Part shown: piece by piece, positions 6,076 to 22,800 of the stretch
Layout of the letters: every line of letters begins with the position of its first letter
Numbering within the stretch: the first letter of the stretch is position 1
Assembly (NCBI GenBank): GCA_013360215.1
Contig: JABWCP010000032.1
Location: 1 to 32,945, forward strand
Length of the DNA stretch: 32,945 bases
Direction of reading: 5' to 3'
Source: a bacterium
GTDB taxonomy: Bacteria; CLD3; SB21
Program-made: the position numbers and the translations under genes
The notes under the pieces: model-generated
Told to the model about the DNA's origin: nothing
The model's input: the letters and a program-made list of their open reading frames with translations, nothing else
The model's database searches: none

Positions 6076-8313
6076 TCACTTAGCCCAATGATTCCACTGT
6101 AGTGTCAAATATGCATTTCTTCCGCGTCCCGGCATTTTTTGAATGTTGGCATGTTCACGGTAATCGGTATCCAAAACATTTTCTACACCCCATTGCAATT
6201 CCGCGTGTTTATTCACTTTTATACCGCCTCGGATTGTAAATAAGGTAAAACCGTGCGTGCGATGTTCAACCGCCTGTTGTTTGGCAAAACGGTTTTGTGA
6301 AGCGGCCGTTTTATTAGACAATTCAAACCAATACGAACCCGGCACCCAACGCACACTGTTTAAAACTTCAAGCGGCGCCATACCGGGCATCGGTTCATCC
6401 CATGCACTTACGCGGCTGTAACGGTATGAGGCTGTAATCTGCCATGCGATGGTATTGGTAATACTTCGAAAATGCGACGCTTCGATACCGGCAAGATCCG
6501 CGTGATGGACGTTTTCAATTTGTTTGAACAGCGTATCGGTGGTAATACCTGCGATATAGCGATCAATCCGTGTGTAAAAAATCTGCGCTTTGGAAATATG
6601 CTTATCCGTTTTGTATTCGTACGACAGTTCCGATTGATAACTGATCTCGGGTTTGAGATTGGGATTGCCTGTATAAATAAATCCATCGGACACATTATAA
6701 AAATAAAAACCATAGTTCTCGATATGCGTCGGCGTACGCGCCGTCCGTGCGAGCGCTAATCGCAATTTTTGATCGGCCATCATTTGCCATTCCGCAGCCG
6801 CACTGGCGCTAAAAGTTATGTATGATGTATTGAGGTGCGTCCGGTTCCAATATCCTTCCAACTCCCGGCGACCGATATCATCATGCAGGGAACGAACGGA
6901 ATAATCCAAACGGAATGATGATTTGAAAACAATTTTTTCCGTTAACAAACGACGGTATTCGGCGGCGGCGGCGTAGTTATAAACATGCGTTGACCCGATA
7001 TTGACGAGGTACATCGGCGAAACCTCGGGATCCAAACTTTGCATATCCATATCGGCAAACGCCGTCATACGATAAAAATCCACAACCCATTTGATGCCTT
7101 GAATATTGTCGCCGGTATAGAGATTGCTCGAAAAACCGATCGTACGCGTATTGCCGTACATCGGCATATACATATTCGGCATAAAATCACGTGCCGTGAC
7201 ATCTCTGTCGTAGTCATCCATATCATGATCCACCATGTTAAAATACACTTTGGTATTCAAAAACGATGCATGATGCCAAGGTTGTCTCCACTGGTGTTCA
7301 AGACCAAAAATATTGGCCACTGCGCGGCGGGTATCCATCAGCAAAACGGGATAACCGGCATCGGTTGCAACATCGCGAATATACGATGCCGTCCAGGTAT
7401 GATTACCGTTTTGGTGCGCAATATCCGTTTTAACGTTGGATTTATTATATCCTGAATTATGCATCAAACGGCCGTCACCGGCACGGAAATCATCGGACTT
7501 GCGAAGCGAAACGCCCGCGCGTGCGGCCCATGCACCGCCGGACCAATTGGTGGTCGAGCGCACAAAACGCAAATGAGATACGTTTTCATATCCGGTTTGT
7601 ACGCCGATGGCAAAGGGTACGGAAAAATCGGGTTTGCCCGTTCTGAGATTGAGTGATCCACCGATCGTCTGCCCGGCGCTCATATCGAAACCGCCTTTAG
7701 CAACTTCGATTTTTTCGAGATTATCTATTTCGACGTACGACGTGACGGGATCCATTTTGTCAATGCACGCGCCAAAAATTTTCATATCATCCACAAGCAC
7801 CTGAATTTGGCCGCCGCTTAGCCCCCGGATGGCCGGTTCTAATCCGAAATTGCCGCGACGAATCAGGGAAAGGCCGTCTGTTTTTTCAAGAATGTCGTCC
7901 GTGGTGTTGAGTTTCTTTTCAAGATAATACGATTCCTGCTGTTGCTCGATCCACGGGGCTGAAACAATGACTTCTTCTTCAAAACGAATCGCATTGCTGC
8001 GAAGAAAAACAGGCATGATTCTTTTTTCGCTAAAATGGTCCACGCTCACCCATGCGGTTTGGTACCCGACGCACGAAATGCGCAGTTTGTATTTGCCGTG
8101 ATGACGCGGAAGATGAAAGTAACCGGCGCTGTCGGCTATCGTACCTTCTTCCGTGCTGTCCATCCGTATATGCGCATAACGCACGGCTTCGCGGGTTTCT
8201 TCATCCACGATACGACCATGCACCATCGTAGCGTGTTCCTGAGCTTGTACGGATAGGGTTACCAAAACAACTAACCCTGTACAGTATTTGATGATCATTA
8301 ACATAGGTTTCAT
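6076..8313 (-). CDS. TonB-dependent outer-membrane receptor, OprC/NosA-like copper importer
   Basis: A 745-residue receptor. A signal peptide (MLMIIKYCTGLVVLVTLSVQAQ) leads into a carboxypeptidase-regulatory-like domain (about 30-105), a plug domain (about 120-225) and a 22-strand-type barrel ending GRNAYLTLQWNHWAK. The plug contains FGACIDKMDP, a CxxxM motif at C183 and M187. The barrel contains VDHDMDDYD, an HxM motif at H363 and M365. These are the ligand motifs reported for the copper importer OprC and its relative NosA, and the MDPxTSY context also matches. I infer uptake of copper for NosZ. The frame extends to a TTG at 8352; I prefer the ATG at 8313 because it gives a normal signal peptide, though no strong ribosome binding site is visible. 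It lies downstream of the Met/His lipoprotein gene. Confidence 0.85.
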   Translation of the reverse strand: MKPMLMIIKYCTGLVVLVTLSVQAQEHATMVHGRIVDEETREAVRYAHIRMDSTEEGTIADSAGYFHLPRHHGKYKLRISCVGYQTAWVSVDHFSEKRIMPVFLRSNAIRFEEEVIVSAPWIEQQQESYYLEKKLNTTDDILEKTDGLSLIRRGNFGLEPAIRGLSGGQIQVLVDDMKIFGACIDKMDPVTSYVEIDNLEKIEVAKGGFDMSAGQTIGGSLNLRTGKPDFSVPFAIGVQTGYENVSHLRFVRSTTNWSGGAWAARAGVSLRKSDDFRAGDGRLMHNSGYNKSNVKTDIAHQNGNHTWTASYIRDVATDAGYPVLLMDTRRAVANIFGLEHQWRQPWHHASFLNTKVYFNMVDHDMDDYDRDVTARDFMPNMYMPMYGNTRTIGFSSNLYTGDNIQGIKWVVDFYRMTAFADMDMQSLDPEVSPMYLVNIGSTHVYNYAAAAEYRRLLTEKIVFKSSFRLDYSVRSLHDDIGRRELEGYWNRTHLNTSYITFSASAAAEWQMMADQKLRLALARTARTPTHIENYGFYFYNVSDGFIYTGNPNLKPEISYQSELSYEYKTDKHISKAQIFYTRIDRYIAGITTDTLFKQIENVHHADLAGIEASHFRSITNTIAWQITASYRYSRVSAWDEPMPGMAPLEVLNSVRWVPGSYWFELSNKTAASQNRFAKQQAVEHRTHGFTLFTIRGGIKVNKHAELQWGVENVLDTDYREHANIQKMPGRGRNAYLTLQWNHWAK

Positions 8314-8401: not shown

Positions 8402-9193
8402 CTAATCAACGGTAACATCAAAATGCGTTTCCACAACGGTTGCCGCATTGCGGGTAATGCTGACATCCACTTGCCAATCGCCGGTCATCGTAAAATTGAC
8501 TTTTCCGCGATATACGGCGCCGCTAACATACACCGGATCTACGTTATTAGGCGATCCGTGTCCCATAGACGGCATCGTCGGTTCGATCGCAAGAGTCGCA
8601 TCGGTCACATCGGGAAATGACATCATGGATACGCGCTCATGCACCATCAGCTCCAATGTGTTCAAACCGACTTCCGGTACACGCGGTTTTTTCCATGAAA
8701 GAATGTACGACTTCGCATCCGTTCCCGTTACGACTTTACAACGATTGGAAGATTTGACCTTGGGTTCGATCATCACCGAACCTTCTTTACCGCTGTGGTG
8801 ATCGTGAAATTCCACTTCCAATTCCCAATACTCCATGTCATTGCCCGGCATTTGAAATACGACATACCCTTCAAATAATCCTTCTTCCGCTTCTTCACTT
8901 TCCGGATTACCGTACGGTGCGGCATGTGTCATTTCCGTCATATGCATCACCGGTGACAAGTGAATATGCCCTTCGTCAAGTATTTCTCCGCTCGCCGAAT
9001 CCTGCAAACGCGTATAGATCGCGTTATATCCGGTAGTCAACGTATCTTCGGAATACACCGAAACCAAAACACCTTGATCGTATCCTTGACCTATCAAAAC
9101 CATATCGTTGACGGGATCGGACGAATTTTTGTCTTTTTCACAAGACGAAATAAAAACAACCGTCATGATGATAATTGCTAACCAACGTAACAT
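8402..9193 (-). CDS. Met/His-rich lipoprotein with YtkA/FixH-like C-terminal domain
   Basis: A 263-residue lipoprotein with signal MLRWLAIIIMTVVFISSC (lipobox ISSC). The ATG at 9193 follows GGGAG at a spacing of 8, better than the TTG at 9208. Two beta domains are visible. The first (about 35-150) carries EGHIHLSPVMHMTEMTH and later HDHHSGKEG. The second (about 165-263) contains MPSMGHGSPNNVDPVYVSG and GKVNFTMTGDWQVDVSI, resembling YtkA-like domains. Clustered Met and His in an exported protein, immediately upstream of a receptor with copper ligands, suggest periplasmic copper binding or transfer. Direct proof is absent, and the N-terminal domain is not one I recognise. Confidence 0.7.
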   Translation of the reverse strand: MLRWLAIIIMTVVFISSCEKDKNSSDPVNDMVLIGQGYDQGVLVSVYSEDTLTTGYNAIYTRLQDSASGEILDEGHIHLSPVMHMTEMTHAAPYGNPESEEAEEGLFEGYVVFQMPGNDMEYWELEVEFHDHHSGKEGSVMIEPKVKSSNRCKVVTGTDAKSYILSWKKPRVPEVGLNTLELMVHERVSMMSFPDVTDATLAIEPTMPSMGHGSPNNVDPVYVSGAVYRGKVNFTMTGDWQVDVSITRNAATVVETHFDVTVD

Positions 9194-9445
9194 GATAAAC
9201 GCTCCCAATTTTTTTTTGATATACTTCGCACACGCGTCGCTCCAAACTTCTTTTTTTGAAGCTTAACTGCAGGGCGCATAAAATTTGACCTGTCATCGTG
9301 ACGATACACCACACTCCGGTACGTAACTGACGGTCGTACTCAGAGCATTGTCATTGTATCTGTTCGATGATCCCATTGAACTAACCGGATGTCTCACATC
9401 ATTGCAAAGCACGATGCACCGAGCATCCGTTGTTTGGAAAAGAGT
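9194..9445 (-). other. Gene-free gap of 252 bp inside the minus-strand block
   Basis: No convincing reading frame on either strand. It probably holds the promoter of the lipoprotein-receptor pair: on the minus strand TTTGGA and TATATC are 17 bases apart, but both hexamers match the consensus poorly. Two small hairpins lie close together (GATGT-CTC-ACATC at 9388-9400 and GATGC-ACCGA-GCATC at 9413-9427), just after the Cys-rich gene. Neither is followed by a T-run. Confidence 0.4.
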
Positions 9446-9817
9446 TTAGGCACGCGGCGGGTGAAAAATATCGGAAGGCGTTTTTGAAATGAAAATCGGT
9501 TGCGTGAAAGAGGAAAGTATCGTCGTATAATGAAATTCGGCTATAATTATAGCCGGTCGGATATGAACCGCAATTAATGATTCGCGTTGCATTTCGCCGT
9601 TACCTTTGGTGCCGCAGCCTTCATTGCGTATCGAGCAGGCGTCCGCATCCGCTTGTGTGACATTTTTATGATCGCAGGTACATGCTTTGCCTTGCGACAA
9701 ACAGCAACACGTTTTGACGCTGCTTTCGCTAATAGCACGAAAAGCCTGCGGCAACCCTGCTGAAAATAGCGTTACGACTAAAAGAAATGCCGGTATTTTG
9801 ATTTTTAAAATACGCAT
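9446..9817 (-). CDS. Small secreted Cys-rich protein, probable metal binder
   Basis: A 123-residue protein with signal segment MRILKIKIPAFLLVVTLFSAG. The mature N-terminal half holds seven cysteines at 37, 38, 39, 46, 48, 61 and 68 in the pattern CCC-x6-CxC-x12-C-x6-C, with a His two residues after C48. The second half has no Cys and is hydrophobic (RPAIIIAEFHYTTILSSF), ending FHPPRA. The ATG at 9817 lies one base past the CopD stop codon, so the two are probably coupled. I do not recognise a named family. Position at the end of a nos/copper operon and a thiol cluster suggest copper binding or redox handling in the periplasm; this is inference. Confidence 0.65.
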   Translation of the reverse strand: MRILKIKIPAFLLVVTLFSAGLPQAFRAISESSVKTCCCLSQGKACTCDHKNVTQADADACSIRNEGCGTKGNGEMQRESLIAVHIRPAIIIAEFHYTTILSSFTQPIFISKTPSDIFHPPRA

Positions 9818-9818
9818 A

Positions 9819-10328
9819 TCACCACGGGTTTCCACGAACTATCATGACGGCCAAAAAAACAATAATCAGACTGATTAGCAGATTTACGCGGCCGATCCAA
9901 GACGCCGCTTTGCGCAGTCCGGGTACCGACGGATGATCCGGGGTATCGCGCCACATACGGGTGGCTTTGGGTCCAAGCCAAAAATCATGCAAACCGCCAA
10001 GCACTAATAGCAGCATAAACAGCGTGATTTTAATTCCCAGTGTGTGCCCGAAATGGCTGTCATAAAATTCGGATTTAAAAAAATCACCCCAGGAATACCC
10101 TCGGGCAAATACATTATATAAACCGGTAGTGAGCAGCAAACCAAATACGATCCAGCCCCAAAAACGAAAACGTTCTCCGGCCCATAATACGATTTTCGGT
10201 GCCACATTTTTATAATCCGGATTGCGGAGAAGCGGAACAAACACAATCACAAAAAAAATCAAACCGCCCACCCAAATCATGGCACAAAGAATATGCAGAA
10301 ATACGGATATAAAATAACCGGTCAACAT
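9819..10328 (-). CDS. CopD-family membrane protein
   Basis: A 169-residue integral membrane protein with four predicted helices (about 5-30, 55-75, 95-115, 145-165). The first helix, FLHILCAMIWVGGLIFFVIVF, is the conserved His/Trp-Gly signature of the CopD / DUF4149-like family. Members are linked to copper passage or resistance at the inner membrane. The ATG at 10328 begins 3 bases after the nosY stop codon, and the next gene follows with a 1-bp gap, so it is clearly part of the nos transcript. A role in copper handling for NosZ is likely from context. Transport direction cannot be read from sequence. Confidence 0.8.
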   Translation of the reverse strand: MLTGYFISVFLHILCAMIWVGGLIFFVIVFVPLLRNPDYKNVAPKIVLWAGERFRFWGWIVFGLLLTTGLYNVFARGYSWGDFFKSEFYDSHFGHTLGIKITLFMLLLVLGGLHDFWLGPKATRMWRDTPDHPSVPGLRKAASWIGRVNLLISLIIVFLAVMIVRGNPW

Positions 10329-10331
10329 GAT

Positions 10332-11123
10332 TTAGAAATCCTTTTTTAAAAAGTGTCGCTTGGCAACAAATAACGGTATCACAGCCCATCCTACCAAGGC
10401 CGCCAAAGATACAATAACACCGAGAGAACCGCCAAAGAATTTTTTAAACGCAGCCCCTGTATAACCCATCATCGCGGCAACATCCATTTTCATCAGTATC
10501 ATCGAGCGCGCAATATTGATGGGATTGAGCATACTGATGCCGATCAGCGGTTTTTCCAACGGATAGTCGGCGAAGGCATACACGATGTATAACACCATGC
10601 CATCAAAAAGTAACGCCAGAGCGAACCACAGGCCTAGAGCAAAACCGATGCCTTTGAGTTTGTCATCTGTGCGCATTGCAATACCAAAAGCCAGCGCGCT
10701 AAAAATCAGCGTTAGCAATAAACCTGTCCCCAGCAACATTACAGGGATTCGCCAATCCGGTATCGAGTTATAACCGAACATCAGTATCGGAACACCTGCG
10801 CCGACGACAAACCCTCCTGCCAGCGGCAGCGCCATTCCGAGATACACGCCCCAAAATAGTTTGCTGCGACGTATCGGTTGGCACAGAAGAATTTCAATAA
10901 ATTCGCGCGAGTGATATACATGCATGGCGCCGAATATCATACTTACCAGCGGTACGATAAGAAGCAAAATCTGCGTCATCGTCAGAAATACGCGACTTGC
11001 ATCCCCTTGCAATTGAAACAACCCGAAGGTCAGCACAAAGAAAAAAGCCGTGTACAAAATGATCCATTTATTACGGATCTGATCGTACCATTCGAATTTT
11101 AGTATTTTTTGGAGAGCGTCCAC
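10332..11123 (-). CDS. nosY: NosY, ABC transporter permease for NosZ maturation
   Basis: A 263-residue permease with six hydrophobic segments, beginning at a GTG (11123) preceded by AAAGGA. It overlaps the end of nosF by 25 bp. The motif YHSREFIEILLCQPIRRSKLFWG after the second helix and the LNPINIARSMILMKMD stretch are typical of NosY. The family forms the membrane part of the NosDFY complex, which couples ATP hydrolysis to assembly of the CuZ site of nitrous oxide reductase, probably by moving a sulfur species or a conformational signal. Gene order D-F-Y is the standard one. Confidence 0.92.
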   Translation of the reverse strand: MDALQKILKFEWYDQIRNKWIILYTAFFFVLTFGLFQLQGDASRVFLTMTQILLLIVPLVSMIFGAMHVYHSREFIEILLCQPIRRSKLFWGVYLGMALPLAGGFVVGAGVPILMFGYNSIPDWRIPVMLLGTGLLLTLIFSALAFGIAMRTDDKLKGIGFALGLWFALALLFDGMVLYIVYAFADYPLEKPLIGISMLNPINIARSMILMKMDVAAMMGYTGAAFKKFFGGSLGVIVSLAALVGWAVIPLFVAKRHFLKKDF

Positions 11124-11833
11124 AGTCCAAGTCCTTTCATCAAATGTGCGATGGATCGTTCGAGCCGTTCTTCGCCGGTCTTTTGACGCAGATCTTCGAT
11201 CGTACCTTCAAAATTGACGCACCCTTCATTTAAAAACAAAACACGATCGGTGATTTCTTCCAATTCACTCATCACATGCGACGTAATGATCACCGTGCGA
11301 CCGTTATTTTTTTCTTTGAGAATTTTATCCTTGAGTAACGTACTCGATACGGGATCAAGCCCGGCGGTGGGTTCATCCAATATCAGTACATCCGGCCGAA
11401 AAAGAAAAGCGAGGTACGCATTCACTTTTTGTTTGGTTCCGCCGGAGAGGTGTTTGAGTGCTTTACTGATTTCCCTTTCGAGCTGCAGTGAACGCATCAA
11501 CTCTTCATCGCGATCCGTAACCATATCGCGAAGATCGGCCATAAGCGATAATAGTTCGTGCACTTTCATGTTTTCGGGAAACCGCGCGGTCTGTGGCATA
11601 TATCCGATACGCCGACGGTATTCGGCATCCTGTGGTGCTATCGCTTTGCCGTCCAGCGTGATCAAACCGCTGTCGGGTGTTACCAAACCGAGTATGGATT
11701 TGATAAGCGTGGATTTGCCGGAACCGTTAGGTCCGATGATGGCTGTGACTTTTCCGGTATCAAACGAAGCGTTGACGCGATTGAGCACGCGCTGTTCGCC
11801 AAAATTTTTGATTAGTGATTGGATTGTTATCAT
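11099..11833 (-). CDS. nosF: NosF, ABC transporter ATPase for NosZ maturation
   Basis: A 244-residue ATPase. Walker A is GPNGSGKST (about 34-42), the signature is LSGGTKQK, Walker B is VLILDEPTAGLDP and the switch His is in ITSHVMSE. The start is the ATG at 11833, which shares the ATGA overlap with the nosD stop; a GTG two codons upstream is possible but less likely. It acts in the cytoplasm as the motor of NosDFY. The overlaps with both neighbours point to translational coupling and equal amounts of the subunits. Confidence 0.93.
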   Translation of the reverse strand: MITIQSLIKNFGEQRVLNRVNASFDTGKVTAIIGPNGSGKSTLIKSILGLVTPDSGLITLDGKAIAPQDAEYRRRIGYMPQTARFPENMKVHELLSLMADLRDMVTDRDEELMRSLQLEREISKALKHLSGGTKQKVNAYLAFLFRPDVLILDEPTAGLDPVSSTLLKDKILKEKNNGRTVIITSHVMSELEEITDRVLFLNEGCVNFEGTIEDLRQKTGEERLERSIAHLMKGLGLWTLSKKY

Positions 11834-13065
11834 AAGCACCGCCCCATTTTGGGTTTGTCGTCCATGAGCGCCGCCGGTGTAAGCGACGGAATAATGCGCT
11901 CGACCAGATCGAGGGCGACGATCGTGAGGCTGCGCATGAGGATCATCGCTTCCGTATGCTGTTCGGAAATCACGGAAAAAAGACTTACGGGGCGATACGG
12001 CTCATCACCGACTCCGTCGCGATCCAGATCATAACCGCTGTAATTGGACCAATAGTTCATCGAAAACGTATTGCGGTTACTGCGCGAATTGGTCGCTACG
12101 TCAAACGCATTATTCTCAAAATCGTTTTCCGTAAAAAAATTATCTGTACAGTTTCCTAAAAGCCGCAACGCCCAGCCGTTGTGTACAAAACGGTTCCTCC
12201 GCATCGTCATACGATTGGACCCTTCCATGTGCACGCCGGCGGTATTGTTCTCGAACACATTATCACGAATATCACTGTCGGTAATATCTTTGAGCAATAT
12301 CCCATACGATGCCGGACCCCAGTTACGGCGAAATGTATTACCGTACATCGCAATATACCGTGTGTACATCACGGCCACACCGGCCGAGTTTTCTTCAAAT
12401 GTATTACCCGTGTATGTACAACTGTCAGAAAACATGAAATGCAGCCCGTAGCGCAGATTACCTAAACTGTGATTATTGCGAATGATGCTGGATTTGACAA
12501 ATTCGAAATAAATACCGTCACGATGTCCGTTGATAGCATTATTTTCGATCGTGATCGCGCGGCAATACCAGAGATGAATGCCGTTACCGGACGAGGATTC
12601 TGTTTTGCCGTCGCTGGATATAAAATTATTTCGCACCAAGCAAAAACTGCTTTTGGCGAGATAGATCGCAAAAAAATTCTTTTCAAACCGATTATCTTCG
12701 ATCGTCACAAAACGTGCGTCGTTGACTTTGACGGCGGCATTTTCCTGCGTGTAACTTATACCTGCACGGACAAATACAAATCCGCGTACAGTCACATACG
12801 ACGCTTCGATGCGCCAGATTTCCGATGTAGCGAGACCGTCCATCACGGGCCAATCCACGCCGATCAGTACGACTTGTTTTTGGATCCAAAGCGGTCCCTC
12901 GGCATAACGTCCTTTGTGAACAAAGATCGTGTCTGTATTTTTCGCCGCTTCCAATGCCGATCGCACGGACGAATACGAAAATCCTTCTCCGACGTGCAAG
13001 GCTTTGGCAAAAACCGTCGTACCCAGCATCACGGCCAACAAACTATGTATGATCCATTTTCGCAT
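11830..13065 (-). CDS. nosD: NosD, periplasmic beta-helix maturation factor
   Basis: A 411-residue exported protein (signal MRKWIIHSLLAVMLGTTVFA) made of parallel beta-helix coils: ITIENNAINGHRDGIYFEF, IIRNNHSLGNLRYGLHFMF and IRDNVFENNTAGVHMEGS. This is the CASH/NosD fold. The C-terminus has the family's NYWSNYSGYDLDRDGVGDEPYRP stretch and then a hydrophobic segment that contacts NosY in known complexes. The ATG at 13065 is one base after the tryptophanase stop codon; an upstream TTG at 13080 would overlap that gene. NosD receives apo-NosZ and NosL-delivered copper on the periplasmic side. Normal family length. Confidence 0.93.
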   Translation of the reverse strand: MRKWIIHSLLAVMLGTTVFAKALHVGEGFSYSSVRSALEAAKNTDTIFVHKGRYAEGPLWIQKQVVLIGVDWPVMDGLATSEIWRIEASYVTVRGFVFVRAGISYTQENAAVKVNDARFVTIEDNRFEKNFFAIYLAKSSFCLVRNNFISSDGKTESSSGNGIHLWYCRAITIENNAINGHRDGIYFEFVKSSIIRNNHSLGNLRYGLHFMFSDSCTYTGNTFEENSAGVAVMYTRYIAMYGNTFRRNWGPASYGILLKDITDSDIRDNVFENNTAGVHMEGSNRMTMRRNRFVHNGWALRLLGNCTDNFFTENDFENNAFDVATNSRSNRNTFSMNYWSNYSGYDLDRDGVGDEPYRPVSLFSVISEQHTEAMILMRSLTIVALDLVERIIPSLTPAALMDDKPKMGRCL

Positions 13066-13066
13066 A

Positions 13067-14443
13067 TCAGAGTTTTTCAAAATGCGCCGTAAAATGACGC
13101 AAAAATTTCGGTTCGTAGGTGATTTTATAGCCGCGCACTTTTTCTTTATTCTTTACGATTTCATCGAAAACTTCGATCACATAATCCACGTGGCTTTGCG
13201 TATATACACGTCGCGGAATCGCAAGGCGTACGAGTTCCATCGGCGAAGGAATCAATTTTCCGGACGCTTCGTATTTGCCAAACATCACTGAGCCCACTTC
13301 CACGCAACGAATACCGCCGACTTTGTAAAGTTCGCAAACAAGCGCTTGCCCGGGGTATTGATCCACGGGAATATGCGGATACAGGTCTTTGGCATTGATA
13401 TACACCGCATGACCGCCGACGGGTAGCATGATCGGTACGCCGAGCGCGTTGATTTTTTCACCGAGATACTGCGTGCTGCGAATGCGATACTTGAGATAAT
13501 CTGCGTCAAAAACTTCCTGCAAACCCACGGCCATAGCGTCCATATCACGACCGGCTAGTCCGCCGTATGTGGTAAAACCTTCGGTAATGATCAAAAGATT
13601 GGTACAAGCTGCGGCGATCGCATCGTCACGCAATGCCAGAAATCCGCCGATATTGACAAGCCCATCTTTTTTGGCGCTCATCACACAACCATCGGCAAGA
13701 TCAAACATGGCCTGCGCAATTTCTTTATATGAAAGATGCGCACACTCCGCTTCGCCATGTTTGATAAAGTATGCATTTTCTGCGACGCGGCAGGCATCTA
13801 TGATAAACAAAATTTTGTACTTCGCGCAGAGTTCACTCAAAGCACGGGCATTGGCAAGGCTCACGGGTTGGCCGCCGCCGGTATTATTGGTAACGGTCAG
13901 GATAACGGCAGCGATATTTTCAGCGTTGTATTTTTTAATCCAATACTCGACCTGTACCAAATCAATATTACCTTTGAAAGGGTGTGGCTTACCGGGCTCC
14001 AGCGCCTCGGGGATGGGGCAATCGATCGCCGTGGCGCCGGAAAATTCGATATTGGCCCGGGTTGTGTCAAAGTGCGTATTACTCAAAAAAACTTTACCTT
14101 TGCCGCCCAGATGGCCGTACAGAATGCGTTCGGCTGCGCGCCCCTGATGCGTCGGCAGAATGTGAGGATATCCGGTAAGGTCTTTGACGACGGACTCCAG
14201 ACGTTCCCAACTTTGTGCGCCGGCATAGGATTCGTCACCGCTGATCATAGCGGCCCATTGTTTATGACTCATAGCCGACGTACCGCTGTCCGTCAAAAAA
14301 TCAATCAGCACATGCTCGGATTTGAGCAAAAAAGGATTGTAGTGCGCTTGATGCAAAAGTTGTTGACGTTCCTCTTCGCTCGTCATATAAATGGGTTCAA
14401 CCATTTTGATACGAAAAGGTTCAATAATAACATTGTGTTTCAT
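13067..14443 (-). CDS. tnaA: Tryptophanase-type PLP beta-lyase inside the nos operon
   Basis: A 458-residue PLP enzyme of the tryptophanase / tyrosine phenol-lyase family, cleaving L-tryptophan to indole, pyruvate and ammonia if the assignment holds. Start ATG 14443 has AGGA 8 bases upstream. The PLP lysine is in SAKKDG (K259), with IDACR (D216, R219) and TNN (186-187). Three positions that separate the enzymes are tryptophanase-like: D126 (Thr124 in Citrobacter tyrosine phenol-lyase), V383 (Arg381) and H450 (Phe448). The rest of the chain (TDSGTSAMSHKQWAAM, GLVNIGGF, GLAGRDMDAMAVGL) is closer to tyrosine phenol-lyase. No signal peptide, so it is cytoplasmic. It lies 83 bp after nosL and 1 bp before nosD. 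Such enzymes can also eliminate sulfide from cysteine, which may be the link to CuZ. Confidence 0.85.
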   Translation of the reverse strand: MKHNVIIEPFRIKMVEPIYMTSEEERQQLLHQAHYNPFLLKSEHVLIDFLTDSGTSAMSHKQWAAMISGDESYAGAQSWERLESVVKDLTGYPHILPTHQGRAAERILYGHLGGKGKVFLSNTHFDTTRANIEFSGATAIDCPIPEALEPGKPHPFKGNIDLVQVEYWIKKYNAENIAAVILTVTNNTGGGQPVSLANARALSELCAKYKILFIIDACRVAENAYFIKHGEAECAHLSYKEIAQAMFDLADGCVMSAKKDGLVNIGGFLALRDDAIAAACTNLLIITEGFTTYGGLAGRDMDAMAVGLQEVFDADYLKYRIRSTQYLGEKINALGVPIMLPVGGHAVYINAKDLYPHIPVDQYPGQALVCELYKVGGIRCVEVGSVMFGKYEASGKLIPSPMELVRLAIPRRVYTQSHVDYVIEVFDEIVKNKEKVRGYKITYEPKFLRHFTAHFEKL

Positions 14444-14526
14444 TGTCGTTTTCCTGATAGTTTTTCGGTTACAATGGACACAATATAAATTTTCATGCTT
14501 CTTTTTTTTCTGACAAAAGTCATATT

Positions 14527-14985
14527 TTAAAAACGATTTTCTTTTTCTATGTAAGCTTTGAGTTGTTCCCAACTCATAATGTCGCCGCTGTTTTCTTTCT
14601 GTGCATTTTCGACGGCTATATTCCCGTTATAAGCGGAGAGAAACAAACCCATCGGGCTGGGTCTTTTTTCGCTGCGCAGATAGCGCGCATCTTTGGCCGG
14701 AATAAACGTTTCGGGCTGATCAAAGGTCGTCACCCAGATCGTACCTTGATCGTTGGCTGATTTTTGTTGATGATAATACTTCACCAAACATTCGATGGAA
14801 TCAAATTTGTAAATTTTTCCTTTTTCGGTTACCCACTCGCTGCCAAAACGGCGATCCGTAATGCCCATACGGCAATGGGCGCACTCGTCTTGTCCATAGG
14901 CGATGGGTTCGGGCCCGGACGTACAAGACCATACCAGTAATGATAACAGGCTAAGCAGCGCCGGGAATCGGTTTGACCGCAACAT
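14527..14985 (-). CDS. nosL: NosL, copper chaperone lipoprotein
   Basis: A 152-residue lipoprotein with lipobox VWSC (C21). Just after it comes DECAHCRMGITDRRFGSE, the NosL metal-site motif (C35, C38, M40). The family binds Cu(I) on the periplasmic side and hands it to NosD for building CuZ. The ATG at 14985 lies inside the last codons of the preceding gene and has a strong GGAGG 9 bases upstream. A longer frame to 15036 would give no signal peptide. Length and motif are normal for the family. Confidence 0.93.
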   Translation of the reverse strand: MLRSNRFPALLSLLSLLVWSCTSGPEPIAYGQDECAHCRMGITDRRFGSEWVTEKGKIYKFDSIECLVKYYHQQKSANDQGTIWVTTFDQPETFIPAKDARYLRSEKRPSPMGLFLSAYNGNIAVENAQKENSGDIMSWEQLKAYIEKENRF

Positions 14986-15577
14986 GGTTTTTTTCCTCCG
15001 TGATGGACGTGTTTTTACGTGATACGAAAAGAACATACAACGTGATCAAAAATGATAATCCTGCCAGAATGCCTCCGATACTCGGTAGCGATGTCGTATG
15101 CATATTCAGAAGCTGTTTGCTTCCGATAAGCGGCGGTTGATAGCTCATACCGGGAATTTTGATCGCCGCATGCGGGTTGAGATTATGACCGTAGTCGTAT
15201 TCCCACAAATAAAAATCCACCAAACCTGCGATCAAAATCGCCAAAAATAAAAACGCCCATACGCCAAGGATTTTTCGTTTTCCAATCCACGCCGCTAAAA
15301 GCCCCGTTAGAATCAAAAAACCTACAAAATAGGGCATGATTTTAAGTTCGGGTATGGATTCGGGCGTAATTTCTTTCATGCCGATATAGTGATTGAGACC
15401 ATTGATAGTTCTGAGGTCGTGCTGATTTTCGCCGCTGATTTTATTGACCCAAATATAGAGACCGAGCCCTTCGGGATATTGCGGCGCATCAAGCGTGATT
15501 TTCCAAAGCGGCGTAAAATATATACCGGTCAGTATAAGCGAAGCCACCGCAATCAGTATTTTTTGTCGTTTATTCAT
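14951..15577 (-). CDS. NosB-like membrane protein of clade II nos clusters
   Basis: A 208-residue protein with four predicted membrane helices: about 5-24, 78-97, 103-123 and 172-195. The loop between helices 1 and 2 contains a conserved-looking IWVNKISGENQHDLRTINGL ... NHYIGMKEI stretch. The loop before helix 4 contains MHTTSLPS. The ATG at 15577 has AAGG at a spacing of 8. Clade II nosZ genes are usually followed by a small membrane-protein gene called nosB, of unknown function. I call this NosB-like from position and topology, not from proven homology. It overlaps nosL by 35 bp and sits just below a terminator, so it is probably made only by read-through. Confidence 0.7.
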   Translation of the reverse strand: MNKRQKILIAVASLILTGIYFTPLWKITLDAPQYPEGLGLYIWVNKISGENQHDLRTINGLNHYIGMKEITPESIPELKIMPYFVGFLILTGLLAAWIGKRKILGVWAFLFLAILIAGLVDFYLWEYDYGHNLNPHAAIKIPGMSYQPPLIGSKQLLNMHTTSLPSIGGILAGLSFLITLYVLFVSRKNTSITEEKNHVAVKPIPGAA

Positions 15578-15587
15578 AACACACCTT

Positions 15588-15625
15588 ACAAAGAAAATAA
15601 AGGGGAGGTTTTTTGAGCCTCCCCC
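15588..15625 (-). terminator. Intrinsic terminator directly after nosZ, inside the operon
   Basis: On the minus strand GGGGAGG (15624-15618) pairs with CCTCCCC (15608-15602) around a 9-nt loop, with one extra G-U pair at the base. The T-rich stretch TTTATTTTCTTT follows. It starts 12 bases past the nosZ stop codon and ends just before the ribosome binding site of the next gene. Partial termination would make nosZ mRNA more abundant than the maturation genes. Confidence 0.78.
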
Positions 15626-15636
15626 AAAATTCAAAC

Positions 15637-17601
15637 TTATTTACCTGTGCTAAATGTCAGCGCGGTATTGGAACCGGCAGCCGAAACGCGAACGTAACCT
15701 TGCATTTCCTGATGCAATGCGGAGCAGAAATCCGTGCAATACATCGGATAAACGCCGGGTGTCTTCGGTTCCCAACGTACGGTAGCGGTTTCACCGGGCA
15801 TGATCAGAAGTTCCGCATTGTTATTGCCTTTGATGGCAAATCCGTGCGGCACATCCCAATCTTGTTCGAGATTGGTTACATGGAAATAAACCACATCACC
15901 GACCTTGACGCCTTCGATATTGTCCGGCGCAAAGTGAGAGCGCGAAGCGGTCATATACACATGCACTTCTTTGCCTTCACGAACGACTTTGGCATCTTTT
16001 TCGCTCTTGGTCGCATACTTATGTTCGTTTTTATTGATGTCAAAAATTTTGACTTCATGTTTGCGAACGAGATCCGCCGCAATACCTTGAGCATAGTGCG
16101 GTTCGCCTATCGTCGGGAAATCCGACAACATGCGCATTTTGTCGCCGCTTATATCGATCAACTGAGCGGATTGCGTGAGCTCCGGACCCGTCGGAAGATA
16201 ACGGTCTTTGGTGATTTTATTCATCGCCAATACATATTTGCCCCACGGTTGTTTACTGTCGCCGCCGGGGATCATGAGGTGACCGATCGAATAGTAGGTC
16301 GGCATGCGGTCAACGACTTCCCACGTACCGAGTTTCCATTTGACAACTTCCGATGATACGAAGTGGGACGTATACGCATAACCTTTACCGTCAAATTCGG
16401 TATGGAGCGGTCCGAGGCCCGGTTCTTGTACTTCACCGGCCAATACGGCATCGTATTTGAGAACAGGAATACCATCGCGATCGCCGTCAAACGCTTTGCC
16501 TTCGATGGCTTTGATCATCTTGCTGAAAGAAAATACGGGAATAACTGTAGCCAGCTTTCCGCCACCGACGATGTATTCGCCGGACGGATCCACGTCAGCG
16601 CCATGCGGAGATTTCGGGCAAGGCATCAGATACAACATATCGGGACAATCTTTGGGATCCAGCATCATCACTTGTTTTTTCTTTTCGGAAATCGTGGTGT
16701 GCTTATTGTCATCATAACGGTTGATATAATATTCCGAAGCCCAAGGTTTCGCTTTGCCCTGTTTGATATATTCTTCGGCTTTCTTCCAGTTTACCGCCAT
16801 GATGAAATCTTTATCATTCTGGCTGGCATTGACTTCAAGCAACGTATGCGCTTGTTCCGTATTGTACGTGGAGAAGAAGAACCATCCATGAGACGGACCT
16901 TTACCGGCATGGCTCAGATCATAGTTGAAACCCGGCACCAGTATCTGGAACGCGAGATCCATGTGGCCTTCTTTAGGATCAACTTTGACAAATGAAATCG
17001 CGCCTTTGAAATTTTGTTTGTACGAATTGATCGCTACGTCGGCTTGCGGTGTCGGCACGCTAAAACGTGTCGCCGATACGACGTACTCCGTATTGATCGT
17101 CGTGAACGGCGAAGCGTGGCTGCCGCCGCTATTGGGAATTTCGATGATTTCTTCGGTACGGAATGTACCCAAATCAATACGCGCGATACGCGGCGAATTA
17201 TTGGCATTGATAAAAAGCCAACGTCCGTCCGGAGTACCGTCGGTCATGGATAATTCAGGATGGTGGCTGTCGTCCCAGGGAATGAAGCCGTCCGTCGTCT
17301 GAAGCATACCTTTGGTTTCTTCATTGAAGCCCCAGCCGTTTTCAGGGTTTACGGCAAAAACAGGGATCGTTTTGAAAAGGCGACCGCTTGGCAGACCATA
17401 GACAGACACCTGACCACTAAAGCCGCCGGAGAGAAATGCATAGAACTCATCATAACTTCCGGGTGGAACAAACACTTTGGATGCGGCATCACCGCTACCG
17501 ATCGTTGCCTCTTTTTTTGCAGGGCACCCGATCCAGACCGCGGCTAATGCGAGCACAACCAACGACGCATAAACTATGCGTGCGGATGGTTTTCGGAACA
17601 T
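15637..17601 (-). CDS. nosZ: NosZ, clade II nitrous oxide reductase with lipoprotein-type signal
   Basis: A 654-residue periplasmic copper enzyme reducing N2O to N2. The signal (MFRKPSARIVYASLVVLALAAVWIGC) has no twin-arginine motif, so it is Sec-exported as in clade II, and ends in a lipobox (WIGC), so it may be lipid-anchored. The beta-propeller holds the CuZ histidine motifs DDSHHPELS, GGSHASPF, SPHGADVDPSG, GPLHTEFDGKGYAYTSHF and GEPHYAQ. The C-terminal cupredoxin domain has the CuA ligands H586 (VPHGF) and CTDFCSALHQEM (C622, C626, H630, M633). ATG 17601 follows GAGGAGG at a spacing of 5, so I prefer it to the GTG at 17619. All key residues are present. The cytochrome c gene upstream is the likely electron donor. 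Confidence 0.97.
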   Translation of the reverse strand: MFRKPSARIVYASLVVLALAAVWIGCPAKKEATIGSGDAASKVFVPPGSYDEFYAFLSGGFSGQVSVYGLPSGRLFKTIPVFAVNPENGWGFNEETKGMLQTTDGFIPWDDSHHPELSMTDGTPDGRWLFINANNSPRIARIDLGTFRTEEIIEIPNSGGSHASPFTTINTEYVVSATRFSVPTPQADVAINSYKQNFKGAISFVKVDPKEGHMDLAFQILVPGFNYDLSHAGKGPSHGWFFFSTYNTEQAHTLLEVNASQNDKDFIMAVNWKKAEEYIKQGKAKPWASEYYINRYDDNKHTTISEKKKQVMMLDPKDCPDMLYLMPCPKSPHGADVDPSGEYIVGGGKLATVIPVFSFSKMIKAIEGKAFDGDRDGIPVLKYDAVLAGEVQEPGLGPLHTEFDGKGYAYTSHFVSSEVVKWKLGTWEVVDRMPTYYSIGHLMIPGGDSKQPWGKYVLAMNKITKDRYLPTGPELTQSAQLIDISGDKMRMLSDFPTIGEPHYAQGIAADLVRKHEVKIFDINKNEHKYATKSEKDAKVVREGKEVHVYMTASRSHFAPDNIEGVKVGDVVYFHVTNLEQDWDVPHGFAIKGNNNAELLIMPGETATVRWEPKTPGVYPMYCTDFCSALHQEMQGYVRVSAAGSNTALTFSTGK

Positions 17602-17670
17602 AAGAGCCTCCTCGATCACTCAGATCGTTTTTTTGTTTTATGTAAACGATGGTATAAGCCATCGAAATCA
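17602..17670 (-). promoter_or_regulatory. nosZ leader with competing hairpins before the ribosome binding site
   Basis: The 69-base gap holds four complementary segments in mRNA order: CGATGG (17664-17659), CCATCGTTT (17652-17644), AAACGATC (17630-17623) and GATCG (17617-17613). Segment 1 pairs with 2 (6 bp), 2 with 3 (7 bp) and 3 with 4 (5 bp), so neighbouring pairings exclude each other. Segment 4 runs into the GAGGAGG of nosZ. This has the layout of an attenuation or translational switch, but each stem is short and AT-rich in part. Confidence 0.45.
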
Positions 17671-18199: not shown

Positions 18200-18946
18200 T
18201 TAATTGTGTGTGGTTTTGTCGAAAATTTGTTTTTCCATCATGACGGCCTTGGGAAACAAAACATTGTTTTCGAGGTGCACATGTTTATGAAGGTCTTGTT
18301 CAAACTCTTGCAACTCATGCAGAAGCAGACGGTAGGTCGTACAAGCATCCACAGGAACATGGTAATCGGCCGTCAACGTGCGGATTTTTTCCATCTGCTG
18401 TCCCGCAAACGCATGTTCATGTTCCATGACATGGATCGGATTGAGCACGGTGCCAAACCCATTGGGACGGATCGGCGCGTGATGCGTGATGTAATTTTCC
18501 AATTCGCAGACGTAGGGAAAAAGAATCACTTCTTCTTTTTGCAAATGCAATTTGAGCTCGGATGATAGCGCTTCAAACGCTTCACGAACGGTTACCATTT
18601 CCGGATGGTGATCGCCATGAACCTGTGCCACTTTATTAAGGTGACGTTCGATCAGTGGAATCGCGTGGCGCATGTAGGTATGATGATTGCTTTGAATATA
18701 TTCGACTATAAATCCCGCTGGTTGTTCATGGATCGGCTTAGGTTGTTGACCTTGAGAGGGTGATTGAATAGCTTTTTCGATATCACGGCATACATCCGCC
18801 AGCGCGATATCTTTATCACGGCAAGCGTCGGATAAAATTTTTTTCCCGCCACAACAAAAATCCAAACGATAGTGTTCGAGAATTTCGGCTGAACGAGGGT
18901 ATTCCAATACGATTTGACCAAGAGGCATGTCTTCAAATGATTTCAT
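18200..18946 (-). CDS. ric: Ric (ScdA/YtfE/DnrN) di-iron Fe-S cluster repair protein
   Basis: A 248-residue cytoplasmic protein. Residues 1-60 form the DUF542 domain with the diagnostic CCGG (C31, C32). The remainder is a hemerythrin-like four-helix bundle with iron-ligand motifs SNHHTYMRHAIP, LHLQKEEVILFPY, MEHEHAFAG and HKHVHLENNVLFP. The family restores iron-sulfur clusters after nitric oxide or oxidative damage. ATG 18946 follows AAAGGA at a spacing of 7. It is 63 bp after the Rrf2 gene and 25 bp before the cytochrome c gene, so it probably shares their transcript. Its place here suggests that the cell meets nitric oxide while respiring N2O. Confidence 0.92.
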   Translation of the reverse strand: MKSFEDMPLGQIVLEYPRSAEILEHYRLDFCCGGKKILSDACRDKDIALADVCRDIEKAIQSPSQGQQPKPIHEQPAGFIVEYIQSNHHTYMRHAIPLIERHLNKVAQVHGDHHPEMVTVREAFEALSSELKLHLQKEEVILFPYVCELENYITHHAPIRPNGFGTVLNPIHVMEHEHAFAGQQMEKIRTLTADYHVPVDACTTYRLLLHELQEFEQDLHKHVHLENNVLFPKAVMMEKQIFDKTTHN

Positions 18947-19009: not shown

Positions 19010-19474
19010 TCACTTCGGTTGTTTTTTTTCTTCCTCATATCCTTCGTCGGCGATTCGGAAATTGAACGTATTGATTTTATCCGCCAGTGTATTGAGTGTA
19101 GCATTTTCAAACATCGCATTTATCTTCTCACGGTGTTTGGCCCATTCACTATGCAAGGGGCAAGGCGCAAGATTGCCACAGCCGGGCAATCCAAAAATAC
19201 ATTGATCAAAAATATTAGGACCGTCTATGGCTTCGACAATATCCGTAAGTGAAATATCTTTGGGGTCGCGCGCCAAGGCCACTCCGCCTTTGGGTCCGCG
19301 GTAGGATATCATGATATTATTTTCCGTTAGCTGCTGTAAAATCTTGGTCAAGAAGTGAAATGATATATTGAGGTTTTCAGAAATCTGCTGAATCGGCACA
19401 TATTCTTTATGACCAAGAGACGCCACATACATCGCGGCACGAATTCCGTATAAACAACTTTTAGTTAGTAGCAT
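19010..19474 (-). CDS. Rrf2-family transcriptional regulator with three cysteines
   Basis: A 154-residue winged-helix regulator. The N-terminal helix-turn-helix (VPIQQISENLNISFHFLTKI) and wing (YRGPKGGVALARDP) are typical of Rrf2 proteins. The Fe-S ligand loop has C92, C99 and C105 (C-x6-C-x5-C), one residue wider in the first interval than IscR (x5) and two wider than E. coli NsrR (x4). The family includes NO sensors (NsrR) and Fe-S sensors (IscR), and coupling to ric and nosZ favours an NO or cluster-status signal. First gene of the block, behind a good promoter. The C-terminus is a charged tail (GYEEEKKQPK). Its ribosome binding site is weak. Confidence 0.9.
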   Translation of the reverse strand: MLLTKSCLYGIRAAMYVASLGHKEYVPIQQISENLNISFHFLTKILQQLTENNIMISYRGPKGGVALARDPKDISLTDIVEAIDGPNIFDQCIFGLPGCGNLAPCPLHSEWAKHREKINAMFENATLNTLADKINTFNFRIADEGYEEEKKQPK

Positions 19475-19822: not shown

Positions 19823-22800
19823 ATGAAAACCTTGCTCACGATGATCGCTTTGATTTTTTTTGCAAGCGATATGTATTCACAAACTGCGCTTACCGGCGGT
19901 ATTACACAGTCCGGTAATTTTACGGCCGCCGGCCAAACAGCCACCTACTCCTACAACCAATCGGTTAGTTACTGGAGTGTGGTGGGTATCCGGCCGCCAT
20001 CAACATCCGACTTTGACATCGAACTTAGCGCCAACACCAATTTCAGTCCTATACTCGCCAGTAGTACACTGGGTACCGGCAAAGTAGATTTCATCGTAGC
20101 CGATTATAACCATTCACCTACGGGTGCACAATACGTTCGCCTCAAAGACTATAGCGGCGCAGGTACGTACTACGTCGAATATGAGAGCGGCGCACATACA
20201 TTAGGTGTTCCATCCAATAGCGGTACACTATCCTGGACATCCAACGAAATCGTCAAAGTTTGGGACGTGTATCTGCAGGCCGGTGTGACTTATACATTTA
20301 AGCTCCGCACACTTTCCGGTCTTCAGGATTATGGCATATCGCTTTACAAATCCAATGCTGCCGCCTATTATGCAGGCCGCAGTTCGGCTGCCGCCACATC
20401 CGATATTGCCGCCAGCGGTACGGACGAATACTTTTCCTATACACCGAGCGTTACGGATTATTACGGCTTCGTCGTATGGTCCAATGATAATTACGGCACA
20501 AGCGGAACCTACGACATTACGGTATCAACATTGGCCACCAATAACCCGCTATCCAGCGCGGCTTCGCCGGGTCAATTTTCATATTATCAAACAAATACCA
20601 ATTGGTCCGTTGTCGCCTTACGCTCAGGTAGCGGCGCCAATGACAATCTCTCGCTTTATACCAATTCGTCCTATACGACTTTAGCTGCGCAAAGCGCATT
20701 AGCCTCGGGTGTCGAAATTATTGCCACTGAAAATGATACCATCACACAAGGTTACTTCCGTTATCCTAAGGTGGATCGCACCGGAGGCACTTCACAATAT
20801 ACTTTGGAGTGGGACGAATCCAGCGGATATATCGGTTTGGGAAGTTATACGACGACGTCATGGAACGCTAACACGGTCGCTAAAGTGTATAACCTGTCCA
20901 TGGCGCAAGGTGCTAAATACCGCATTAAATTGCATACCGTTTCAGGTAGTGTGGATGCAGGCCTTCTTCTTTTCAAACCCAATGGTTCACTGAGTTCCCA
21001 AGCGCGATCGGCCGCACTGCAATCGGCCGATGCCAATGGCGCCGGACTGAACGAAGAGATCATACTCACCGCGCCGGTTTCCGGATGGTATGCATTGGTC
21101 GTTTACAGCAATACGGCTACCGCCGGTTCTTTTGATTTGTCGTTCAATCAGGAAATTCTCGCCGCTTCCAACGTGTACGGGCAAGGCATCAAACATTATG
21201 CCTTCGATCAACAAAATGCCGCATGGTCCGTAGTCGGCGTGCGCCCGCCATCCAACGCGAATACCGATATCGTTTTGTATAATAATCATACGTACACCAC
21301 GCCTTTAGCGACCAGCAATACAGCCGGCACAGGCCAGGTGGATTTTGTCGTCGGCGATCAGCATCACACGGCCAAAGGCATTTACTACGTCAGCACGGAC
21401 GATCCCTTGAATCCGAGTCGCGTAAATTATACCACGCAATGGGAAGGCGGTAATGAATCGTTAACGGCGCCCGGAACAAATACCGGCTACGCCTGGGCCA
21501 AAACGGATGTCGTAAAAATATGGGATGTACAATTGGTGTCCGGAATCAATTATACATTTAATCTGAGCGTAAGCGGCGGTACACCCAATCTCGGCATGGC
21601 GATATTCCGCTCTTCGTCTACTACGGAATCATTTTATTTTGGCCGCTCCGGAGCGGCCGCGATCGCCGATGTGAACGGGAACGGGGGAGGCGAATCGTTT
21701 TCCTATACACCGAGCGGCGCATTAGGCACACTCGATCATTACGGTATTGTCGTTTGGAGCAATGATACCACATCCGCCGGAAGCGTCCGCATTGACATCG
21801 CCCAACCGCTTATGACCAGTGCGACACCCGTTTCCGCCAGCAGTTCTCCCGGGCTTTACGCGTTCAATCAATCCGTCTCCGGATGGGGCGTCATCGCATT
21901 ACGGCCGCAGTCTTTCGAAGATTTTGATTTAGAATTGCACGGCGCTTCCGATTACAACAATCTTTTGGCTCAAAGCACGTTGGGAACAGGCGCTGTAGAG
22001 TTTATCGCGGGCGATTTTCGTGCCGGACACGCCCCGCTTAAAACCTATTTCACAAAAGCCGTACAAAACAGCGGCAAAGGCCCTTATGCGATCGAATGGG
22101 AAGGCACCAACGAAACCCTACCCGTCGAAGGTAATTCCGGTACGATCAGCTGGGGTACCACGGCTATCGCTAAAGTATACAATGTGCCCCTGGTCGGCGG
22201 ACGCACTTACAAAATCAAATTGGATTTTCTGACCAATGCCTTCGATGCCGGAATGGCGTTATTCCAACCGTCAACAGGTAATAATTATTTTCCACGCGGT
22301 TCGCAGGCCATGCTCGCCGATGTAGCCGGCGCAGGCAATGAATCTATGACATTTACGGCGCCCATGACGGATACCTACGGCCTTGTGGTTTGGGGCAACA
22401 CACAACCGGCTTCGGCCGCCACGTTTGCCATAGACATCAATCAGCCGCCCGTAGTGAGCGTACCGATTCCCGACGTAAATTTTTCAGAAGATCAAGGCAG
22501 CGGACTTGTGGCCAATTCTAACCTCAACGGAAATTTTTCCGATATACAACCTTTAAGCTATTCGGCATCCGTACTCAAAGGCGGCGGTATCACGGTCAGC
22601 GTGGCGGGCAGTACACTCAAAGTCAGCACGGTTTCTGATTCCGTCGGCCAATATCCCGTCGTCGTGACGGCCAATGACGGAACTTTTTTTACCAGTGATA
22701 CACTCATTGTTACTTTGGCGCCGGTGAATGATCTTCCATACCGCTCCGCGCTGATACCAGATCCTAAAATCGCCGAAGATGAACAGTCTTTTTTTGCATC

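Follow-up and report, generated by a model that had tools for sequence, protein, structure and literature searches.

A 32,945-nucleotide stretch of bacterial DNA (the window) encodes an OprC-type TonB-dependent receptor that, together with a methionine-rich lipoprotein and the small cysteine-containing leader gene that usually accompanies them, suggests a three-part copper-uptake cassette (Table 1). The best reading is that this receptor belongs to a distinct clade of lipoprotein-coupled OprC-type importers in the FCB group. This clade would be a new variant, the novelty of which lies in a near-obligate lipoprotein partner and in a leader-like ORF at many of its loci. The proposal as a whole, which joins an OprC-like importer, a lipoprotein partner, a leader and the supply of copper to NosZ, is on balance probable. 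It is based on homology, ligand conservation, gene order, export-signal statistics and motif spacing.

Table 1. Features of the receptor gene and the adjoining nos genes in the window (aa, residues of the receptor)
Feature	Coordinates	Strand	Basis or remark
OprC-type TonB-dependent copper receptor	6076..8313	-	ATG at 8313, stop at 6076; 745 aa, frame intact
M422xM424 pair	7042..7050	-	invariant in 50
M381-Y-M383-P-M385, aligned with OprC methionine track	7159..7173	-	M383 and M385 invariant in 50
H363xM365, counterparts of OprC H323/M325	7219..7227	-	alignment and conservation
Plug domain, aa 134-219	7657..7914	-	Pfam
C183xxxM187, counterparts of OprC C143/M147	7753..7767	-	alignment and conservation
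CarbopepD_reg_2 domain, aa 31-114	7972..8223	-	Pfam, E 1.5e-14
Two-domain YtkA-like lipoprotein, Met/His-rich, Cys18 lipobox then EKDKNSS	8402..9193	-	Pfam YtkA; upstream of receptor
252-nt gap, small ORF to lipoprotein gene; GGGAG before ATG	9194..9445	-	not more structured than controls
Small exported Cys-cluster ORF ending IFHPPRA, probable copper-sensing leader	9446..9817	-	123 aa
CopD-like membrane protein	9819..10328	-	Pfam CopD; also in family relatives
NosY-type ABC membrane protein	10332..11123	-	ABC2_membrane_2 and position
NosF-type ABC ATPase	11099..11839	-	family match and position
NosD	11830..13080	-	TIGR04247, 417 bits
NosL	14527..15036	-	Pfam NosL
NosB-like membrane protein	14951..15634	-	no family match; position conserved
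Clade II (Sec-dependent) NosZ, probable copper client	15637..17619	-	TIGR04246, 953 bits

The assignment of the receptor as an OprC-type copper importer, as the initial annotation had proposed for an FCB organism, is well supported by sequence, profile and fold comparisons, from which copper binding is predicted. OprC (6fok) is the top PDB match by phmmer (E = 8e-19, residues 140-734), and the alignment places GACIDKMD over GACPNRMD and DHDMDDY over DHIMDNF of OprC. In the OprC crystal structure, C143, M147, H323 and M325 are the four copper ligands (PMC8610252). The annotation had recognized the same OprC/NosA ligand pattern in C183/M187 and H363/M365, and these residues are present, in register with Pseudomonas aeruginosa OprC and invariant among 50 relatives. 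Their alignment with OprC suggests that they converge on a single copper site. A profile built from the 50 relatives scores OprC at 215 bits across the entire plug and barrel; the second solved receptor, PhuR, reaches 106 bits over the C-terminal half only. In a Foldseek comparison, the AF2 model of the receptor (mean pLDDT 90, pTM 0.80) matches OprC in each of the 28 leading positions, with TM to target of 0.80-0.85 and rmsd of 3.2-4.2; ZnuD and PhuR come next. The best curated model is TIGR01778, the NCBIfam equivalog for TonB copper receptors, at 129 bits. This is far below its cut-off of 472, and the receptor is therefore filed with a sister clade rather than as an OprC equivalog.

Eight residues of the receptor are invariant in an alignment (A2) of 50 sequences that are 26-40% identical to it: C183, M187, H363, M365, M383, M385, M422 and M424. 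Because MDP and YP..MD were among the peptide patterns used to gather the relatives, M187 was partly selected for; the patterns did not select for the Cys, the HxM or the Met pairs. M383 and M385 belong to the stretch of the receptor that the OprC alignment pairs with the methionine track. A profile search across 198 whole genomes from the phylum of genome G069 found 22 strong receptor loci in 21 genomes, with a score threshold for a strong receptor that was chosen after a gap in the scores was seen; at least four of these loci repeat earlier sequences (L052/L125, L056/L124, L058/L126 and L013/L132). The four copper ligands are kept in all 22. The same search returned a second Bacteroidota receptor group (300-394 bits) that has CPNRMDP and HxM and lacks the extra methionine pairs, and a third group in which the Cys is replaced (GPARMD). 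In a tree made by a quick method, the CxDxMDP group that includes the window receptor forms one side of a branch (73 rows, SH-aLRT 95). Receptors at four loci (L153, L154, L156 and L157) carry GPARMD or GPLRMD instead of the Cys motif and keep HxM, and a Cys-containing ORF that ends in PP is retained upstream of three of them (L153, L154 and L157). These receptors possibly recognize a different metal or copper state.

The window receptor has in common with OprC and with NosA of P. stutzeri (PMC8610252) the TonB-dependent barrel and plug, the CxxxM-HxM ligands and a methionine-rich segment at the position of the OprC track. It differs in being about 20% identical, in its score below the TIGR01778 cut-off and in having CxDxM rather than CPNRM. 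Its clade also differs from OprC and NosA in its additional invariant Met pairs, its near-obligate YtkA-like lipoprotein and, in part of the clade, a regulatory-like domain at the N terminus. This last feature had been put forward as an added carboxypeptidase-regulatory domain that adapts a copper importer to the FCB group. The domain itself is real, and the adaptation is rejected: CarbopepD_reg_2 occurs in about 20 of the 50 relatives, is missing from most clade members and is also present on non-copper receptors of the same genome.

A homologue of the YtkA-like lipoprotein adjoins the receptor in 80 of 80 loci (at 1.35 kb in L048) and in all 22 strong loci of the profile search. It is found at none of the 11 loci of the sister CPNRMDP clade (L142-L152). 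In the window's genome, this lipoprotein contains the single YtkA domain that scores over the cut-off. Its AF2 model (pLDDT 95.6) is nearly all-beta past the signal peptide, and Helicobacter pylori CrdA is both its sole copper-related fold match by Foldseek and its sole clear sequence-profile match. Each half of the protein shows strong conservation of Met and His, with the motifs P.M.M..M.H..P and P.MPSMGH. The conserved residues are M88, M90, M93, H95 and M120, then M212, M215, H217 and M241, in a 268-residue numbering, and an invariant Met precedes the C-terminal GxW. A YtkA-like fold is shared with CrdA (PDB 9ll2), as judged by Foldseek and profile, and with Bacillus subtilis YtkA/CtaK (PMC13344008), as judged by the Pfam family name. 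The window lipoprotein differs from both in having two domains with Met/His motifs in each half, and in always occurring beside a TonB receptor. The literature searched contained no matching paper on a YtkA lipoprotein next to a copper TonB receptor, and the function of such a partner is undescribed in those papers.

The pairing of a TonB receptor with a surface lipoprotein is familiar from the SusCD and BtuG systems. In Bacteroidota, an acidic signal after the lipidated cysteine marks surface lipoproteins (PMC5080379), and we tested for a signal of the K-(D/E)2 type or rich in S and D at positions +2 to +6. At least two acidic residues occur in this interval in 97% of 32 Bacteroidota partners with a lipobox, compared with 16% of other lipobox genes from the same loci (P = 6e-14). 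Over all loci, the mean number of acidic residues is 2.11 for the partner, 0.36 for NosL and 0.38 for NosZ lipoproteins. The cytochrome c lipoprotein averages 1.71, so that acidity by itself is no proof of surface export. In FCB loci outside Bacteroidota, which is the group of the window organism, the signal is weaker (61% versus 32%, P = 0.02). In the window protein the sequence is CEKDKNSS, a partial acidic signal under a rule that comes from Bacteroidota and may not hold in the group of this organism. Surface exposure of the lipoprotein is thus likely in Bacteroidota and less sure in the window organism. The SusCD/BtuG-type pairs of Bacteroidota (PMC5080379, PMC6143338) similarly combine a TonB receptor with a cognate lipoprotein bearing an acidic export signal. 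Their lipoproteins differ from the partner described here, which is a YtkA-like Met/His protein whose ligand would be copper and whose complex with the receptor is hypothetical.

The small ORF upstream of the lipoprotein gene is probably a copper-sensing leader, as judged from its motifs, spacing and position. It has an N-terminal hydrophobic stretch (judged by eye), the cysteine cluster segment CCCLSQGKACTC and the C terminus listed in Table 1. A same-strand upstream ORF with at least two Cys and a PP in the last 14 residues is present at 68 of the 75 loci with sufficient upstream sequence; among the other genes of these loci, a PP within the last 14 residues, with Cys not required, occurs in about 16 of 1,035. 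The profile-search set has the ORF in 16 of 22 clade members. These leader-like ORFs are 110-150 residues long, and the distance from CxxxC to PP is 61-71 residues (median 67, n = 57) with variable sequence in between. The window ORF has 71 residues from the last Cys of its cluster to PP, and relative to its counterpart in the family genome G004 it shows offsetting indels (-5, -2 and +6) between the cluster and PP. All 11 loci of the CPNRMDP clade, which lack the lipoprotein, also have a PP-ended Cys ORF, and the Cys-to-PP spacing is 64-69 in 8 of these 11.

Two types of copper-responsive leader provide precedents for this ORF. CruR, the copper-sensing leader encoded upstream of a Bordetella copper TonB receptor, has a CXXC motif, 45 residues to RAPP and a DUF2946 domain, and a cruR homologue has been reported upstream of oprC (PMC9426467). 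The B. pertussis CruR-CrtA(BfrG) system (PMC9426467, PMC12914433) shares with the window the small Cys-motif ORF, the C-terminal PP, the copper TonB receptor below it and a long intergenic gap. CrtA is from a different receptor family and is a reported importer of chelated Cu(II), whereas the window receptor is OprC-type; in place of CXXC and 45 residues, the window clade has CxxxC or a CCC..CxC cluster and about 67. The window ORF matches neither the DUF2946 profile nor any Pfam family, and its membership in DUF2946 is rejected. The filters that define CutF-like leaders ask for a length below 150 residues, an export signal at the N terminus, metal-binding residues, a PP among the final 15 residues and a same-strand gene within 1000 nt (PMC9973294). 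The 123 residues, hydrophobic N terminus, Cys cluster, IFHPPRA terminus and 252-nt gap of the window ORF all fall within these limits, and most ORFs of the clade share CxxxC with CutF. Since Bacteroidota CutF-like proteins and their TonB-type neighbours have already been counted (PMC9973294), the leader itself is of a known kind.

In the case of CutF, a stem-loop mediates the control of a multicopper oxidase (PMC9973294), whereas the gaps of the window clade contain no excess structure. These gaps between the small ORF and the lipoprotein gene are longer than usual (median 112 versus 44 nt), and their mean z score is -1.36 compared with -2.12 in control gaps, which lends no support to a CutF-type stem-loop at this position. 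A search of the window for Rfam elements gave no match. In the window, the small ORF is internal to a long gene run and is not its first gene.

The nos genes are arranged on one strand in the order NosZ, membrane protein, NosL, NosD, NosF, NosY, small ORF, lipoprotein and receptor in the window and in three other genomes of its family (G003, G004 and G005). We call the membrane protein after NosZ NosB-like, a name taken from clade II nos clusters and applied by position only. The nos run is contiguous with the receptor cassette in all four of these genomes, and the CopD gene is found ahead of the small ORF in two of them (the window and G004) and beyond the receptor in the other two (G003 and G005). 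The initial annotation had tied the receptor to a nos cluster. This link is strict within the family and does not extend to the clade in general, as NosZ or NosD is encoded near 28 of 80 related receptors (21 of 48 among loci with full flanks). NosZ is present in 14 of the 21 strong-receptor genomes and absent from 7, compared with its presence in 60 of 177 others (odds ratio 3.9, P = 0.007, for 198 genomes uncorrected for kinship), and the 60 genomes that have NosZ and lack the receptor indicate that the receptor is not required for NosZ. Some NosZ clusters appear to have recruited the cassette as a copper supply, and it does not look like a part restricted to nos. A search for copper nitrite reductase in the window's genome gave weak sub-cut-off matches only, and the literature searched contained no matching paper on TonB copper receptors in FCB nos clusters.

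Several other genes of the window may be recorded here. A tryptophanase/tyrosine phenol-lyase-like gene (13067-14572, minus strand; PRK13238, 681 bits) lies between nosL and nosD; it has a homologue at the same place in G003 and G005, not in G004, and its presence among nos genes has no evident explanation. Genes for an Rrf2-family regulator (19010-19474) and a RIC-type di-iron repair protein (18200-18946), both on the minus strand, head the run above a cytochrome gene and nosZ, and both recur near receptors in several Flavobacteria. On the plus strand, a 2751-residue secreted protein (19823-28078) has many repeats of the SEDFGK..FSDIDN type and a C-terminal tail (YPNPFNPST...) that resembles a type IX secretion sorting domain. 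A further plus-strand gene (28816-30621) encodes the C-terminal half only of the carbamoyl-phosphate synthase large subunit (model positions 477-1057); the gene before it is an unrelated TPR gene, so that carB is split or displaced here.

If the cassette functions as proposed, copper would pass along the row of methionines to the site formed by the Cys-Met pair of the plug and the His-Met pair of the barrel, and TonB would then pull the plug and release copper into the periplasm as in OprC. The most likely role of the lipoprotein is to bind Cu(I) and to pass copper on to the receptor. This transfer would start at the cell surface in Bacteroidota and, with less certainty, in the window organism. 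The small ORF is most likely a nascent-chain copper sensor that controls the lipoprotein and receptor genes in the manner of CruR. In the window's family, the cassette stands last in the nos run, and clade II NosZ most likely obtains copper from it and would be its main client. A bolder form of this proposal is more tentative. It envisages a two-protein outer-membrane copper machine of the FCB group, made up of an OprC-type receptor and a surface Met/His lipoprotein that captures Cu(I) outside the cell. An exported nascent-chain sensor would switch this machine, and the distance of about 67 residues between Cys and PP in the sensor (45 in CruR) would be set to read copper beyond the inner membrane.

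The lipoprotein could act on the other side of the membrane, as a periplasmic chaperone that accepts copper from the receptor for delivery to NosZ or other cuproenzymes. This arrangement deserves serious thought even if it is not the one that we favor, as B. subtilis YtkA/CtaK has been linked to CuA assembly (PMC13344008), the nearest solved fold is that of the copper resistance determinant CrdA, the window signal (CEKDKN) is only partly acidic, and the signal is weaker outside Bacteroidota. The strongly acidic partners of Bacteroidota argue for a surface lipoprotein instead, particularly since the periplasmic NosL and NosZ lipoproteins from the same loci are without the signal. A similar question arises for the small ORF, which would not be a leader at all if it were an ordinary exported copper-binding protein acting in trans. 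Its conserved Cys cluster, its export-type N terminus, the lack of excess RNA structure 3' of it and its internal position in the window gene run are compatible with such a role. We nevertheless find it doubtful, given that the frequent C-terminal PP and the fixed Cys-to-PP distance despite variable sequence fit arrest peptides, for which CruR and CutF are precedents (PMC9426467, PMC9973294), and we retain the leader as the preferred interpretation.

It is unlikely that the receptor is a nos-dedicated OprC/NosA orthologue with NosZ metallation as its sole role. The contiguity with an entire nos cluster throughout the family and the enrichment of NosZ in receptor genomes would agree with this role, but most related receptors have neither NosZ nor NosD nearby, a third of the receptor genomes lack NosZ, the TIGR01778 score falls short of equivalog status, and NosZ of one P. 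stutzeri strain was unaffected when nosA was deleted (PMC8610252). Far less probable still is that the protein takes up siderophores, haem, zinc or vitamin B12 and owes its motif to descent. The C-terminal barrel does weakly match haem, siderophore and B12 models, and ZnuD and PhuR come next in the fold ranking. Such receptors rank far below OprC in sequence, profile and fold, however, and the copper ligands and Met pairs are invariant and the neighbors are copper genes.

Uptake of free copper by Gram-negative bacteria is known mainly from Proteobacteria (OprC and CrtA). The clade described here would add Bacteroidota, Ignavibacteriota, Balneolota, Calditrichota, Marinimicrobia and a Gemmatimonadota bin to the bacteria that probably import ionic copper. 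The fixed spacing between Cys and PP makes it testable where the nascent chain senses copper. In the window's family, the cassette lies inside the gene run of clade II NosZ, the copper enzyme that removes the greenhouse gas N2O, and it therefore provides a direct genetic handle on the copper supply of this enzyme.
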